Below are positions 938 to 29,586 of a stretch of 29,586 bases of DNA, piece after piece; within the stretch, counting starts at the first letter, position 1; every line of letters begins with the position of its first letter. The stretch comes from a virus, in the IMG/VR virus record IMGVR_UViG_3300042316_000346, positions 1 through 29,586 of that record; one strand, 5' to 3'. The notes below the pieces were generated by a model that saw only the letters and a program-made list of their open reading frames with translations, had not been told where the DNA came from and did no database searches. Both the position numbers and the translations under genes were made by a program.

Positions 938-1456
938 CTAGTAAGCAGGGCTTACAGGTTCGGCTTCGCGCTTCCGTGTTACCCGCCGCCGCGCGTTCTT
1001 CGCCTTCTCGCGTTTCCTGCTCTTCTCCACCTTAGCCCGTTCCCAATTTATCCAGCGCATTAGACACGCCCTTGGGGTGCGGCCCATCTTCGCGCCGACC
1101 TCGACGTAGGTGAGCCCCTCCTTCCGGAGCCGATAGAGCCAGCGCGTGTCGGCCTCGTTCCACCGCGTCTTCTTCGCAAGGTGGATGTCGAGGATACGGC
1201 GCACGGTCGATATGTGCCGCCCCTTAAGGTCCGCGATCTCGATGTCCGTCATGCCGCCGGCGTGCAGCTCGCGGACGTCCTGTTCCTCGTCGTCGGTCAC
1301 CTGGACGAAGAAGCGGAGCCCGAGCGTGCCCTTGAGAGTGCGAACTGCGTGAGCCGACCTGTTGAGCAGACGGGCCGTTTCCGGGGCCGGCGTGCCTAGG
1401 TCATGCAACCGGCGCAGCTCGAGGAGCTGGGAGCGCGTCCACGGTCTACCGGGCAT
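938..1456 (-). CDS. triple helix-turn-helix protein with basic tail (paralogue A)
   Basis: The protein is 172 aa from the ATG at 1456, which has GAGG nine bases upstream; longer frames start inside the upstream gene. It consists of three similar units of about 40 residues near 6-45, 54-92 and 99-138. Each has a first helix beginning WTRS, VTDDEE or WNEADT, then a G-T/L-T turn, a second helix and a recognition-like helix ending in an R-rich segment (for example GRTPRACLMRW). This pattern is that of Myb/SANT- or resolvase-type HTH units. Residues 139-172 are very basic, which suits nucleic-acid binding. It overlaps the next gene upstream, a paralogue, by 11 bases. A role as phage transcription regulator or origin-binding protein is inference; no exact family is recognised. 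Confidence 0.72.
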   Translation of the reverse strand: MPGRPWTRSQLLELRRLHDLGTPAPETARLLNRSAHAVRTLKGTLGLRFFVQVTDDEEQDVRELHAGGMTDIEIADLKGRHISTVRRILDIHLAKKTRWNEADTRWLYRLRKEGLTYVEVGAKMGRTPRACLMRWINWERAKVEKSRKREKAKNARRRVTRKREAEPVSPAY

Positions 1457-1985
1457 GTAGGTGCCTCGCCCGCTTGTACGTCGAGATGACGTACCAGTTC
1501 CTGCCGACCTGCTCCCCGATGGCGCGGACACCCAGCCCGTCGTTCAGCATGGCGTCAACCAGCCGGCGCTCGTGCTCACTTAGGGCCGCGTACTTCGCGC
1601 TCCGCTTGCCACTGACCTGCGCGATAGCCGCCTTGGCGTTCTGCACCGCGACGTACTGCGCGCAGGCTTCCGGTTGCCTCGTGAGGGCCGCGCCGACGTC
1701 GACCCATGTGTGCCCCCGTGCGCGCATCTCGCGGGCCTTGGCAAGCTCGCTGGGACGCCACACGCGGTAGGTGTGCTTGGGCACGGTGCGCTGCTTCGGC
1801 TGAGCGTCGGCCAGCATGTCCAGCGCCGACCAGTCGGACGCCTTCAGCGTCGCTAGCAGGCAGTGCATCGCGCCCTCACTGCGCCCGAGCTGCTCGCCCA
1901 CCTCGCGCCAGGTGAGGCCCGTCTCACGCAGCTGGCGTGCGCGTTCGTACTCAGAGGGTCGCCACGGGGTGTTGGTGCGGGTCAT
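1446..1985 (-). CDS. triple helix-turn-helix protein (paralogue B)
   Basis: The protein is 179 aa. Its three HTH-like units lie near residues 8-47, 76-115 and 135-175. The first two open with the same WRPSE signature followed by a G-x-T-W-x-x-V-G turn (TWREVGEQLGRS, TWVDVGAALTRQ); the third has VRAIGEQVGRNW. The same architecture recurs in the gene directly downstream, so the two look like an old tandem duplication that has diverged. The start ATG overlaps the upstream stop as ATGA. DNA binding is strongly suggested by the repeats and the Arg content; the target is unknown. It may regulate the leftward operon or assist replication, being two genes upstream of the primase-polymerase. Confidence 0.72.
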   Translation of the reverse strand: MTRTNTPWRPSEYERARQLRETGLTWREVGEQLGRSEGAMHCLLATLKASDWSALDMLADAQPKQRTVPKHTYRVWRPSELAKAREMRARGHTWVDVGAALTRQPEACAQYVAVQNAKAAIAQVSGKRSAKYAALSEHERRLVDAMLNDGLGVRAIGEQVGRNWYVISTYKRARHLHAR

Positions 1986-3081: not shown

Positions 3082-3510
3082 CTAGCAGGGCTCCACGAAC
3101 ACATCGATGCGCGCGGTGCCCACCTCGCACCGCTTGACCACGCTGAGCTGAACCACGAACCGGTCATCCTCCAGAATGCCGGCCTCAACCATCGCGTCGA
3201 GCACGATCTTCGCCACGTTGTCGGCGTCGGGCTTCGTGGCGTAGGGGATGCCGAGGGTAGCTACGCGGTCCTTCCATCGCTCCCGCGTGCACCACGCAGG
3301 GCGCGACTTCGGCAGGGGCCAGTACGCCACGATCTCCACGGCCACAGGGCACGCGAAGGGCTCGCCCTGGCGCTGCTCACGCAGCATGACGACCGCTGCC
3401 TCCATCCACGCGCGATGCTCGGGAGGCATGTAGACGCGCCCACCTCCTCGAGCTGCTCGGGGACGGGATGCGCCGCGAGGGACGAGGCCGATGGTGTAGC
3501 CGATGGTCAC
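3082..3510 (-). CDS. rusA: RusA-family Holliday junction resolvase
   Basis: The start is the GTG at 3510, with GGAG seven bases upstream and a GTGA overlap with the preceding stop. It gives 142 aa, close to the usual RusA length; the longer open frame begins inside the neighbour. The family signature is complete: KPDADN at 93-98 with Asp 95 and Asp 97, K101, D105 in KIVLDAM, DD at 115-116 and K126 in LSVVKR. In the family these acidic residues bind magnesium and cut four-way junctions symmetrically. In a phage it would resolve branched recombination or replication intermediates before packaging. It complements the ERF annealing protein encoded about 0.8 kb away on the other strand. Confidence 0.93.
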   Translation of the reverse strand: MTIGYTIGLVPRGASRPRAARGGGRVYMPPEHRAWMEAAVVMLREQRQGEPFACPVAVEIVAYWPLPKSRPAWCTRERWKDRVATLGIPYATKPDADNVAKIVLDAMVEAGILEDDRFVVQLSVVKRCEVGTARIDVFVEPC

Positions 3511-3824
3511 GCGAGTCTCCGAGCGTCCTGAAGGACGTACATGCTCATCTCGTTCTGGACGCTGCCGGGGATGGTCTTCGGTGCCTCGCTCTCCCACCTG
3601 TCAGCCAGCCAGCCGTTGCGCCGGCGGCGTGCCTCGGCGACTGCAGTGGCGATGACCCACGCGGCCATCTTCCTCTGTCCATGCCAGCCGGCGTTCACGC
3701 GCGGGACCTCGACGACGGCCCCGGTCGCGGTGACGTAGCGGCACCCGCAGTAGAAAGCGGGCTCGTGCCAGACAAGGGCAGGCTCGTTCACGCGCGGGGA
3801 CCACTCCGCGACCAGCGAGGTCAC
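3507..3824 (-). CDS. hypothetical 105-aa protein
   Basis: The start is the GTG at 3824, overlapping the repressor stop as GTGA; the much longer open frame upstream runs antisense through the control region and is not credible. The N-terminal half has FYCGCRYVTATGAVVEVPRV, a CxC pair in a beta-like context. The C-terminal half is Arg-rich helix (VAEARRRRNGWLADRWESE). No family is recognised. Its coupling to the repressor suggests an early or regulatory accessory role. Confidence 0.62.
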   Translation of the reverse strand: MTSLVAEWSPRVNEPALVWHEPAFYCGCRYVTATGAVVEVPRVNAGWHGQRKMAAWVIATAVAEARRRRNGWLADRWESEAPKTIPGSVQNEMSMYVLQDARRLA

Positions 3825-4042
3825 GGCACATCCACGGCAGCTGCGGCCATGAGCTCCACCGCCGGGATGTCCAGCGCGCGAGCTATCGCCACCATCGCCG
3901 TGAGCGACGGCTTGTATTCGCCGGCCTCCCAGCGCGTGACCTGCGAGCCGGCGACACCGACCTGACGGGCCAGCTCCGCGCGTGACATTTCCAGCGTCTC
4001 GCGATGGACGCGGATCAAGGTGCCGAGGGTAGGGTGCAACAT
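3821..4042 (-). CDS. XRE/Cro-CI-type helix-turn-helix repressor
   Basis: The protein is 73 aa. It is a single HTH_3 domain with the typical order: an initial helix (LGTLIRVHRETLEMSRAEL), the HTH core LARQVGVAGSQVTRWEAGEY near residues 24-43, and a scaffold helix (LTAMVAIARALDIP). There is no C-terminal dimerisation or cleavage domain, so it resembles Cro or a short repressor and not full CI. It is transcribed divergently from the rightward recombination operon. Two palindromes lie only 5-35 bases upstream of its start codon, which suggests autoregulation. The start codon is so near the probable -10 box that the mRNA may be leaderless. Confidence 0.9.
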   Translation of the reverse strand: MLHPTLGTLIRVHRETLEMSRAELARQVGVAGSQVTRWEAGEYKPSLTAMVAIARALDIPAVELMAAAAVDVP

Positions 4043-4046
4043 GAAC

Positions 4047-4077
4047 CTGCACTATAGTGCAGTTGCGCTTAGCGCAA
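4047..4077. promoter_or_regulatory. divergent control region with two adjacent operator palindromes
   Basis: Two perfect inverted repeats lie side by side. CTGCACTATAGTGCAG at 4047-4062 is a 16-bp palindrome with no spacer. TTGCGCTTAGCGCAA at 4063-4077 has 7-bp arms around one central base. They sit between the leftward XRE gene and the rightward operon. TATAGT at the centre of the first palindrome can be read as a -10 box on both strands. In the leftward direction a TTGCGC at 4069-4074 (+ numbering, part of the second palindrome) lies about 15 bases upstream of it. The arrangement fits operators overlapping the divergent promoters of a phage switch; the binding protein is inferred to be the adjacent XRE protein. 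Confidence 0.72.
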
Positions 4078-4097
4078 GGCTCGCATAGGGTGGGGCC

Positions 4098-25041: not shown

Positions 25042-26436
25042 CTAACCTAGCCGGACGACGGTGGGCGTGTGCATGCGGCGGGTCACTAGTTCCAGCGTGT
25101 AGCGCAGTGCGTCGATGGAGTGCTTGTGCTCGGACGCCTCGCGACCGTCCCACCGTTGCAGGTCGTCCGCTAGACGCTTGCACCGGGGATGGACGAAGAA
25201 GTCACCGCGAAGCATCGCCGCGCTGAGGACCCGGATGCCCTCGAAGACAGACCCGGCGGGTTTGTGCGCCGTCCGGATGCGGAAGGGCAGGGCACCTGTC
25301 GGCAGGCGCAGCGCCCGCTCCATCGCAGACATCAGCATCGCGTTCGACTTGAGGCTTCCGTTCCGTCGACCGTACACCCGCCGGTCACCCACCCACAGGT
25401 CGACCGACTCCCACATGAGGCCGGCGCGCTTCAGCATGTCGAGCAGCATCCGGGCGTCTTGGTCGGGCGTGGTCTGCCCGTCGGTCTGTACCTGGTCCAG
25501 CACCCACACGCGCGGCTGGCCCTCGCCACCGTCGCGCACCATCGCTACCAAGAGCCCGACCTGAGCGCCGGCCTCGGTCCCGTGGTCGATGCCGATCCCA
25601 ATCATCGCCTCGCCCGTCGGGACTTCCGGCTTCACGTGACGCGCTGGGTCGAACATCCGGAAGACGCGGCCCTCAGTCCACAGGCTTTCCCAGTCGCCGA
25701 ACACCCGTTGCGCCCGCTGCTGCGGGAGGATGGCCTCGCTGAACGACTCGATCTGCTCGGCAGACATCAGCGGACGCGAGCCGATCGGCGTCGTGTTTTC
25801 TACGGTGAGCGGAAAGCAGAAGTCGCGCACCTTCCCGTCGTCCACCAGCTTGCGGAGCCAGCCGAGCGGCGCACCCACCGGCGTCAGCGTGAACACGATC
25901 CGCCCGTGGTTGCGAAGCACGCGCGGCACGACCTCGTTGTAGATCTCTTCCGGCGGCGGCTCATCCATCATCACGTAATCGACCGTTGAGCCGGCGAGCG
26001 CGAGTGACCCTTGGTTGGAAGTTCGCACGCGGATCAAGCTGCCGTTCTTAAACCGCACCATCGGGTGACGGCCTCGGAAGCCCTTCCCGGTCGTGTACTC
26101 GGTATCGTCAGCCAGCGCGTCCTTCGGGAGCAGAGCCCAGAGCTTGCCCTGCACAGAGAGCGAGCTCTCCCAGCTCTCGACAATGACCCACGCCTCAATC
26201 GGCGCGGGGCGCACGGGCTGGTAGGGGGACCCTCCGAGGCACCGGTAGATGCAGTCGACCAGACCCATCGTGGTCTTGCCCACCTGGTTCCCGGCTCGCG
26301 CGAGGCGCATGTGAGACGGGTCGCTAAGGAACTGAAGTTGCGGTGCCGTCGGAGTCCAGTAGGCGAGGGGGTCCGCGACCGTGCGCTTTTGGAGCTGGTC
26401 GACCGCACGCGCGAGGTTCGCTAGCCCACCGGTCAC
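25042..26436 (-). CDS. terL: terminase large subunit
   Basis: The GTG start at 26436 overlaps the small-terminase stop as GTGA. The protein is 464 aa. ATPase motifs: Walker A RAGNQVGKTT at 47-56, Walker B VDYVMMDE at 152-159, and the coupling motif TLTPVG at 183-188. The nuclease half has GIGIDHGTEAG with Asp 284, a second acid in GDRRVYGRR (Asp 351) and HSIDALRY with Asp 442, consistent with an RNase H-fold metal site. It pumps DNA into the procapsid and cuts the concatemer. The coupling to a small subunit gene and the following portal gene are canonical. Confidence 0.95.
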   Translation of the reverse strand: MTGGLANLARAVDQLQKRTVADPLAYWTPTAPQLQFLSDPSHMRLARAGNQVGKTTMGLVDCIYRCLGGSPYQPVRPAPIEAWVIVESWESSLSVQGKLWALLPKDALADDTEYTTGKGFRGRHPMVRFKNGSLIRVRTSNQGSLALAGSTVDYVMMDEPPPEEIYNEVVPRVLRNHGRIVFTLTPVGAPLGWLRKLVDDGKVRDFCFPLTVENTTPIGSRPLMSAEQIESFSEAILPQQRAQRVFGDWESLWTEGRVFRMFDPARHVKPEVPTGEAMIGIGIDHGTEAGAQVGLLVAMVRDGGEGQPRVWVLDQVQTDGQTTPDQDARMLLDMLKRAGLMWESVDLWVGDRRVYGRRNGSLKSNAMLMSAMERALRLPTGALPFRIRTAHKPAGSVFEGIRVLSAAMLRGDFFVHPRCKRLADDLQRWDGREASEHKHSIDALRYTLELVTRRMHTPTVVRLG

Positions 26437-26789
26437 GAAACCTGCACGAGGCGGGGGCCGCGGCGCTTCATGTCGACGGCGTCTTCTACCTGGTCAAGGA
26501 GCGACGGCGGGAGCTGCGCGATGGCGGCGGTGATGATGCCGACCAGCTGGACGTCGCTCATGCCCTCGTCAGGCGAGGACTCCTTCGCGCGTGCGATGTC
26601 GAGCGCCTCGCGCGCCTGGAGAGCACGGAGCTTCAGAGATCCGACGGCCTGCCAGCTGCGCGAGTCGCTCGCGTCTAGGACCGCCTGCTCAAGCTGCTCC
26701 ACAGATGCCGCCAAGTACTCAGCCGTCGTGCACGTAGTCGCGTCCTTAGGGGTGAGGAACGTGGACTTCGTGTTGCTGCGGGTTCGCAT
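26433..26789 (-). CDS. terS: probable terminase small subunit
   Basis: The protein is 118 aa; the ATG follows GGAGCACC. A basic N-terminus (MRTRSNTKSTFLTPKDA) and central helices (AEYLAASVEQLEQAVLD, LKLRALQAREALDIARAK) are followed by a C-terminal part with LPPSLLDQVEDAVD and a basic end. No clear HTH can be pointed out, but size, helical oligomer-like centre and the coupled position directly before the large subunit are those of TerS. Upstream lies a 180-bp non-coding region that could hold the packaging site. Confidence 0.72.
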   Translation of the reverse strand: MRTRSNTKSTFLTPKDATTCTTAEYLAASVEQLEQAVLDASDSRSWQAVGSLKLRALQAREALDIARAKESSPDEGMSDVQLVGIITAAIAQLPPSLLDQVEDAVDMKRRGPRLVQVS

Positions 26790-26969
26790 GGTGCTCCGAT
26801 TTGGTTCAAGTCTAGCGGGGAGCGGGAGAAAGTCGACAAGCTAACGCGGTCCCGGCTTGACCCCCCTGTATACACGAGGCGGGGACGCCCGCCGGGAGCA
26901 CCATTACCCCCGGCGGGACGCTTTCCCAACGTCCGCAGGCGTCTCCCGACACCGGCGAACACCTAGTAC
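26790..26969. other. 180-bp non-coding region upstream of terminase; candidate packaging site or promoter
   Basis: No credible gene is present. The most striking element is a perfect 9-bp GC-rich inverted repeat, CCCGCCGGG at 26888-26896 with CCCGGCGGG at 26909-26917 and a 12-base loop. To its left is the short palindrome TGTATACA at 26870-26877. The right edge holds the end of the 91-aa gene. Regions just before terS often hold cos or pac sites; that is inference here. The hairpin has no T-tract on either strand. Confidence 0.45.
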
Positions 26970-27245: not shown

Positions 27246-27445
27246 CTTTCCCTCCTACTGGTTGGCCCGGGTGGCACCCTCCCCACCCCCAAGGGTGGGT
27301 CTCCTACCTTCCCTATAAGTCAGACATTACTTATAGTTTAGGTACTTTAAGGTTGGGGCTGGGTGTCCCGGGCGATTAGGGCAGCCTCAACCTACGTTAT
27401 TCGGGTGGCACCCTCACCTTGAAGGGTGCCACCAAGGGTGCCACC
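27246..27445. repeat. 200-bp non-coding block with four 11-bp repeats and other palindromes
   Basis: GGTGGCACCCT occurs forward at 27270-27280 and 27404-27414, and inverted (AGGGTGCCACC) at 27423-27433 and 27435-27445. The last two are direct repeats with a 12-base period, and 27404-27433 forms an 11-bp perfect hairpin with an 8-base loop. CTATAAGT/ACTTATAG at 27313-27336 is an AT-rich inverted repeat, and CCCACCC/GGGTGGG surrounds 27290. The block starts right after the helicase gene stop. It could be a terminator cluster, an operator region or an iteron-type origin beside the replication genes. Confidence 0.75.
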
Positions 27446-28691: not shown

Positions 28692-29564
28692 CTAGGTACA
28701 GAGTTCGATGAGGGGAGCGACGTAGCCGCATGAGTTCACGTGCGAGCACTTGGCGTGCCCCGGTCCTGCGATGGTCCACCACACGGACCTATCGCCACAC
28801 TTCGGGCACCTGACATGGCGCACGTGCCCTGCGCCCTCGATGACGTCGCCGGCCATGCTGGCACCCAGCGAGACACGAGCCGATGGGTCAAGGCGAAGCA
28901 TACGGGCCAGCTCTCGGTCGGCGGCGTCCCGTGTCCACGGCACGCGAGGCTCGACACGGATCGCCCGCTTAGGTGGCGGCTTCGGCTTCTCCTTGACCAG
29001 CTCGAGCAACCACGCCGGCGCCTGCGCCATCTCGCGCGTGAACCCTGCGTCCGTGCGCCAGGCATACACCGCGCCCGACCGGTGGACGGTGGGCGGGGCG
29101 CAGACGTAGCCACCGTCTCCACGGACATCGACCGACTTGATCCCCGCCGCTTGTAGCCCCTGTGCGTTCCGCACGACCTCGCCTTCAGTCCAGCGCCAGT
29201 ACATATGGAAGCCCCTCGCCGTCTCCACACCCAGCGTCGGGGAGGGTCCGTGCTTCGCGAGCTGCGCCTCGTACCACGCGCCCGCTTCGGGGCCGTCGAG
29301 GTCCAGCACCCAGACCCGCGAGGCGCTGCCGGTCGCGAGGCCCACGCCCGCGCGAGGCCAGCTGGTCCACCACGCGCGCACGGTGTCCGGGTCCGTGCTC
29401 GCCTTCGTCTGCCAGCCGCCGAGGCGCGGGTGCTTCCCTCGCTGCTTCTCAGGGCAGGCGGCGCCCGCTTGGCACGCGCATACCTGCGTGACGGGGTCTA
29501 CCTCGTAAAGCGGGTGCACACGCAACCCCGCCGCTGCATACCGCAGCGCGTATTCTCGGTTCAT
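28692..29564 (-). CDS. primase-polymerase (bifunctional Prim-Pol) with zinc finger
   Basis: This is the complete copy, 290 aa, starting at the ATG at 29564. It has a Prim-Pol (PF09250-type) catalytic domain: an early Cys cluster (Cys 29, 31, 37) before GKHP, VLDLDG with Asp 88 and Asp 90, GFHMYWRW at 118-125, and SVDVRGDGGYVCAPPTVH at 144-161 with the third acid Asp 146. The C-terminus carries Cys 253, 256, 273 and 279 in a CPKC...CSHVNSC arrangement, probably a zinc ribbon for DNA. The family primes and extends DNA at phage or plasmid origins. It is coupled to the downstream helicase gene, so the pair would start replication. Confidence 0.92.
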   Translation of the reverse strand: MNREYALRYAAAGLRVHPLYEVDPVTQVCACQAGAACPEKQRGKHPRLGGWQTKASTDPDTVRAWWTSWPRAGVGLATGSASRVWVLDLDGPEAGAWYEAQLAKHGPSPTLGVETARGFHMYWRWTEGEVVRNAQGLQAAGIKSVDVRGDGGYVCAPPTVHRSGAVYAWRTDAGFTREMAQAPAWLLELVKEKPKPPPKRAIRVEPRVPWTRDAADRELARMLRLDPSARVSLGASMAGDVIEGAGHVRHVRCPKCGDRSVWWTIAGPGHAKCSHVNSCGYVAPLIELCT

Positions 29565-29586
29565 CCACTCGCCTGCCTTCGCCGGG
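28779..29586. repeat. right copy of imperfect 808-bp terminal direct repeat
   Basis: This is the partner of 1-808. It includes the primase-polymerase start codon and ends 22 bases upstream of it at the window edge. The bases from 28692 to 28778 complete the gene and have no counterpart in the left copy, because that copy is cut off. This is the expected pattern for a contig that runs past its own beginning. Confidence 0.95.

Follow-up and report, generated by a model that had tools for sequence, protein, structure and literature searches.

Two overlapping viral genes encode triple-HTH proteins that are candidate early DNA-binding regulators

Two overlapping genes in the window (the whole 29,586-nucleotide stretch of viral DNA that was analysed) encode small basic proteins, HTH1 and HTH2, each built from three HTH units. 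Both appear to be new representatives of a widespread phage class of multi-HTH DNA-binding proteins, DNA binding being read here from fold and charge, and the explanation that I favour, at about even confidence, is that they form a translationally coupled pair of early-operon DNA-binding regulators. The feature is real and its earlier description accurate, while its novelty at the family level is limited: the pair adds a coupled two-gene form to the phage multi-HTH (D5-like) proteins, a poorly characterised group. This is a modest addition and not a new kind of system. In addition, comparison between related contigs assigns a set of origin-like repeats to the helicase module instead of to the HTH pair.

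Gene pair and its six HTH units

Both open reading frames were confirmed on the minus strand within 938-1985, using the ORF list and the translations (Table 1). HTH2 has a net charge of +12 and a pI of 10.2, HTH1 a net charge of +17 and a pI of 10.9. Because conservation among relatives begins at MPGRPW, the ATG at 1456 is most likely the true start of HTH1. The resulting overlap between the two genes, which is also present in relatives (14 nt between HTH2 and the gene in the HTH1 slot of contig L008), suggests that HTH2 and HTH1 are translationally coupled.

Table 1. Positions of the gene pair, its HTH units and the neighbouring elements in the window
Feature	Position	Strand	Description	Basis or relation
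HTH2	1446-1985	-	179 aa, three HTH units; first gene of the putatively coupled pair	ORF, translation, AlphaFold2, relatives, dN/dS
HTH1	938-1456	-	172 aa, three HTH units and a basic C-terminus	
HTH2 stop/HTH1 start overlap	1446-1456	-	11 nt	Relatives also have an overlap
HTH2 unit 1 (B1)	1845-1964	-	Residues 8-47	Unit comparison, unit HMM, AlphaFold2
HTH2 unit 2 (B2)	1641-1760	-	Residues 76-115; nearest to unit 1 (z 10)	Unit HMM, AlphaFold2
HTH2 unit 3 (B3)	1464-1583	-	Residues 135-174; sequence most divergent	Unit HMM, AlphaFold2
HTH1 unit 1 (A1)	1322-1441	-	Residues 6-45	GcrA DNA-binding domain match 5yiu
HTH1 unit 2 (A2)	1181-1300	-	Residues 53-92	HTH_23-like
HTH1 unit 3 (A3)	1043-1162	-	Residues 99-138	Myb-like
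HTH1 basic C-terminal extension	941-1036	-	Residues 141-172, net +9	Length varies
Prim-Pol, cut by contig end	1-786	-	Downstream of HTH1	95% identical to the copy at 28692-29564
RusA	3082-3510	-	Upstream of the pair, presumably in the same operon	PF05866, E 6e-23
Two adjacent palindromes	4047-4077		CTGCACTATAGTGCAG (4047-4062), TTGCGCTTAGCGCAA (4063-4077)	Directly precede the XRE gene (3821-4042)
Four GGTGSCACC repeats	27270-27445		At 27270, 27404, 27425 and 27437	3' of the helicase gene

The first-pass annotation had claimed three HTH repeats per protein and six units in total, and three approaches (structure prediction, unit comparison and a unit HMM) bear this out. AlphaFold2, run with alignments of relatives, predicts three three-helix units in HTH1 (helices 8-19/24-31/35-44, 55-66/71-78/82-88 and 101-112/117-124/128-164) and three in HTH2 (10-21/26-33/37-49, 78-89/94-101/105-125 and 137-148/153-160/164-173), so that each chain has three where at least two tandem three-helix HTH units define the multi-HTH class. 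Mean pLDDT is 79 for HTH1 and 70 for HTH2, confidence being good inside most units and low between them; with pTM values of 0.42 and 0.34, respectively, the models therefore predict neither the packing between units nor their relative placement. A single-unit HMM, for which the six units and related ones were used, detects exactly six copies in the window, all of them in HTH1 and HTH2, and none in the other ORFs.

Compared without gaps over 40 residues each, the six units reach 340 in BLOSUM62 score summed over all pairs, where shuffled sequences average -555 (sd 50), and 13 of the 15 unit pairs reach p <= 0.02 against shuffles. The closest pair, B1-B2, lies inside HTH2; A3 is nearest to B2, and B3 is only weakly like any other unit (z at most 3.9). 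The genes had been called tandem paralogues, and the units are indeed alike far above chance, but unit order does not match up between HTH1 and HTH2, which is not what a clean whole-gene duplication would leave. The pattern fits repeat duplication combined with shared HTH ancestry better than duplication of an entire three-unit gene. The long basic tail that had been pointed out does exist in HTH1, and in the L004 protein as well, but it is short in L002, L003 and L011 and hence not conserved among relatives.

Family assignment and likeness to known systems

It had been proposed that the pair belongs to no described phage family. Generic HTH families of Pfam match (HTH_23, E 3e-9; HTH_38, E 2e-7), and among 38,880 PHROG profiles every member tested has phrog_323 ("transcriptional regulator, D5-like") as its best match: the window proteins P0001 (E 3e-14) and P0002 (1.6e-6), L002 (1.3e-14), the HTH2 of L003 (1.2e-8), the divergent partner in L008 (3.6e-15) and the single protein of L027 (3e-21). 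D5 of phage T5 belongs to the same PHROG (E 1.2e-71), which is partly promiscuous in that it also matches, at 1e-7, an actinophage HTH protein whose best PHROG is 664. An HMM of the D5 family (Demerecviridae D5 proteins) retrieves neither window protein at E 0.05 and reaches only L027 (2e-5) and L008 (9e-4); hhalign against D5 gives a probability of 87% for HTH1 (E 3.7e-6, 127 columns) and of 30% for HTH2. Because the D5-family HMM misses the pair and phrog_323 picks up other multi-HTH proteins, I would place the pair in a broad multi-HTH class and not file it as D5. The proposal thus stands with respect to the D5-family profile, and falls with respect to phrog_323 and the generic Pfam families.

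The likeness to T5 D5 consists of the multi-HTH build, phrog_323 and the genomic position. The T5 gene order is ligB-D5-D6-pri and that of the window HTH2-HTH1-Prim-Pol-helicase, so that D5 and the pair both lie directly upstream of a helicase and a primase, although the enzyme types differ (VapE-like and Prim-Pol in the window). On the other hand, D5 is one protein of 255 aa with an extra N-terminal region, whereas the window has two coupled genes of three units each, and the conserved D5 motifs are absent from the window proteins. In the phage collection HTH1 has a single match, gp140 of Mycobacterium phage StAugustine (PHROG 664; 31%, 126 residues), which has related HTH units but is 120 aa long, contains fewer of them and has PHROG 664, not 323, as its best.

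The nearest solved folds are DNA-binding domains: that of GcrA, Tc3 transposase, c-Myb (Myb/Cdc5) and sigma region 4. HTH1 unit 1 superposes on the GcrA DNA-binding domain (5yiu) with a Z of 9.1, at 1.3 A over 47 residues and 28% identity, and HTH2 unit 3 does so with a Z of 8.2, at 1.6 A over 48 residues. GcrA itself carries a single domain of this kind besides other regions, as opposed to three units per window protein, and its family model PF07750 has no match in P0001 or P0002 and stays below cutoff in L008 and L027. The R1R2R3 region of c-Myb is likewise a tandem of three three-helix units that contain Trp, and HTH1 unit 3 is the most Myb-like, but sequence similarity is marginal (E 0.14-1) and superposition of the whole proteins is poor (8 A), since the packing of the units differs or is not predicted by the models. 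Cbp1, the CRISPR-repeat-binding protein of the Sulfolobales, is likewise a small protein of three HTH domains; it arose by duplication and binds along DNA unit after unit (PMC10883916). Unlike the window proteins it is archaeal and not paired, and against the NCBIfam model HTH_Cbp1 HTH1 scores 16.2 bits, below the cutoff of 140. One further match, PDB chain 8vd6 ('CAP repeat', E 1e-12), was discarded: it consists of many weak repeat matches and drops to E 0.13 with a single-sequence query. A paper on protein design (PMC12339374) cites 8vd6, which I take to be a designed protein.

Conservation and genomic setting

Close relatives of the pair were found among IMG/VR contigs. Identity to the window is 52-56% for HTH1 and 67-71% for HTH2 (L003, L004 and L008 included), and 82-90% for the Prim-Pol of L002, L003 and L008; HTH1 diverges faster than HTH2 or Prim-Pol. 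Since dN/dS is about 0.05-0.45, with dS exceeding dN in every pair compared, the family is, as judged by these alignments, real coding sequence under purifying selection. The order RusA-HTH2-HTH1-Prim-Pol recurs in L003/L009, L004/L007 and L011. In L008, HTH2 is kept and a different, divergent three-HTH protein fills the HTH1 slot; L027, whose Prim-Pol is 58% identical, has one protein with two units that are clear in the unit HMM. The quick divergence of HTH1 together with this one replacement suggests a target or partner that differs from phage to phage. HTH2, by contrast, is kept alongside three helicase types and, in L011, with another Prim-Pol, and is therefore not bound to a particular replication enzyme.

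Whole-record searches, in records that may be fragments, found no homologue of the pair in L026, L028, L029, L030 and L031; if L026, L028, L030 and L031 do not encode the pair elsewhere, its function would be dispensable or replaceable. With tblastn, essentially no relatives were found in isolated phages, and deeper alignment-based scans of viruses contributed L013 alone, which is the same contig as L011. The one genome match, L032, belongs to a Chloroflexi MAG; as a contig of 3 kb it is not long enough to decide what the host is. Literature searches turned up no account of a paired triple-HTH system of this kind.

As first annotated, the pair lies between RusA and a copy of Prim-Pol. Segments 1-808 and 28779-29586 agree without gaps at 95% of their 808 bases, match exactly at their outer edges and extend exactly to both contig ends. 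The window is likely a single genome, circular or permuted, whose assembly drew on slightly different strains, and the truncated Prim-Pol and the complete one are probably one gene rather than two; the continuous order HTH1 (or its replacement)-Prim-Pol-helicase in L002, L003 and L008 agrees with the single-gene reading.

Several elements accompany these genes. A two-hairpin leader (GGACGCGGGCTGATCCCCCGT..., then a long G/C hairpin) occupies 780-870 on the minus strand, just before the Prim-Pol start. It is conserved upstream of Prim-Pol in L002, L003, L004, L008, L011, L026, L027 and L028, with compensatory changes at 5 of 21 pairs, and the copy in the window has no Rfam match at gathering score. 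This hairpin between HTH1 and Prim-Pol is unlikely to be the target of the HTH proteins, as contigs without the pair have a similar leader ahead of Prim-Pol. The core of the hairpin, CGCGGGCTGATCCCCCG, is found again in the otherwise different viral contigs L043, L046, L047, L050 and L051, where no Prim-Pol was detected and where it apparently lies upstream of other genes; no Rfam match was obtained for it in the contigs searched. In L003 (5466-5560), L002 (513-590) and L011 (5994-6070) the stop codon of HTH1 is followed by an inverted repeat, CCGTGAGACGTG ... CACGTCTCACGG, that is absent from the window.

Candidate functions of the pair

Of the roles first suggested (regulators, nucleoid-like proteins or origin-binding factors), the first remains the best reading. 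DNA-binding regulators are favoured because the pair belongs to an early block with RusA, Prim-Pol and helicase and combines basic charge, multi-HTH build and the PHROG assignment. The early operon would run from the XRE operator region through RusA and the pair to Prim-Pol and the helicase, and the pair would be made from it. Homeodomain-, Myb- or GcrA-type units, three per protein on short linkers, would enable one molecule to contact an extended asymmetric DNA site, for which Cbp1 may serve as a binding model: a three-HTH protein lying along a repeat, with each unit touching part of it. The pair would most likely regulate phage transcription, either in early shut-off or in late switch-on, with HTH2 as the conserved partner and HTH1 as the faster-evolving, replaceable one. 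By analogy, a regulatory role and a replication role may not be cleanly separable, D5 being recorded in the T5 entry as 'required for DNA replication and late transcription'. It is decidedly doubtful that HTH1 and HTH2 together form one six-unit reader of a long composite site, with the HTH1 slot swapped between phages to change that site.

The region 4043-4097 had been put forward as a target of the pair. The palindromes that it contains are more likely the XRE repressor's own operators, judging from their position, which explains them better and makes binding by the pair unnecessary. Palindromes also directly precede the XRE gene in six contigs that carry HTH2 (L003, L004, L006, L010, L011 and L012). 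Five further contigs have the same operator and no HTH unit in the sequence present; they apparently end earlier, so the two readings are not separated by them. The stretch between the XRE operator and Prim-Pol is where many related contigs end (near L010:4763 and L012:5210, and in L034, L036, L037 and L038), which suggests that it is a strain-variable region that breaks assemblies.

The main rival to the regulator reading, which I consider rather unlikely, is that HTH1 and HTH2 are abundant, weakly specific DNA-coating (nucleoid-like) proteins that organise or protect phage DNA during replication, as T5 gpD5 may do. Their strongly basic character and multi-HTH build would suit this role, and their top PHROG contains D5, which is annotated as DNA-binding and encoded beside the D6 helicase and the primase; in Yersinia phage phiR2-01 the D5 homologue was one of the major proteins associated with the virion (PMC8624392). 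The D5-family profile, however, misses the window proteins, the hhalign likeness to D5 is moderate for HTH1 and weak for HTH2, and the basic tail of HTH1 is not conserved.

By analogy, the proteins could instead be directed at the host, binding host DNA or RNA polymerase sites to shut off host expression, or countering or tripping a defence. T5 D5 is mildly toxic on expression and triggers retron-Kva2 via a predicted HTH-fold binding of msDNA (PMC13405049), and host-specific targets would agree with the rapid divergence of HTH1 and with its replacement. Since the argument proceeds by analogy and no defence-related neighbour was seen near the pair, I regard this as doubtful.

The third role, origin binding at 27246-27445, was examined by comparing repeat types at nine helicase loci (window, L002, L003, L004, L008, L025, L026, L027 and L028). 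The repeats are real, with four copies of GGTGSCACC in the window against 0.5 expected, and the pair adjoins Prim-Pol and the helicase. Repeat type nevertheless follows helicase type. The window and L002, whose helicases are 84% identical, have GGTGSCACC in common (two exact copies in L002); L003 and L008 (94% identical) and L026 (60-62%) have GGGTGTGAC; L004 and L025 (84%) have GTCGGACA and GTGGACA; L027 and L028 (76%) have GGTGGGACA. HTH2 is nearly constant across the first three of these groups, L003 and L008 have the same repeats and different proteins in the HTH1 slot, and repeats are present in L026 and L028, in which searches detected no homologue of the pair. The simplest reading of this comparison is that the helicase/Prim-Pol module, and not the HTH pair, reads the repeats, which makes binding by the pair unnecessary and origin binding quite improbable; the pattern suggests that the repeats are iteron-like origins that co-evolve with that module.

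A role as small terminase subunit or other packaging factor, to which weak Terminase_5 (gpP-like) Pfam matches in L008 and L027 might point, is hardly credible, as the pair belongs to the early/replication block and is remote from the gene of the large terminase (25042-26436), and a separate small gene (26433-26789) occupies the usual TerS place beside the latter.

A G/C-rich inverted repeat (about ...CCCGCCGGG...CCCGGCGGG...) lies at 26790-26960 in the window, upstream of the small gene that precedes the large terminase, and is also present in L002, L004 and L025. By eye, its arms appear to differ between contigs yet stay complementary.
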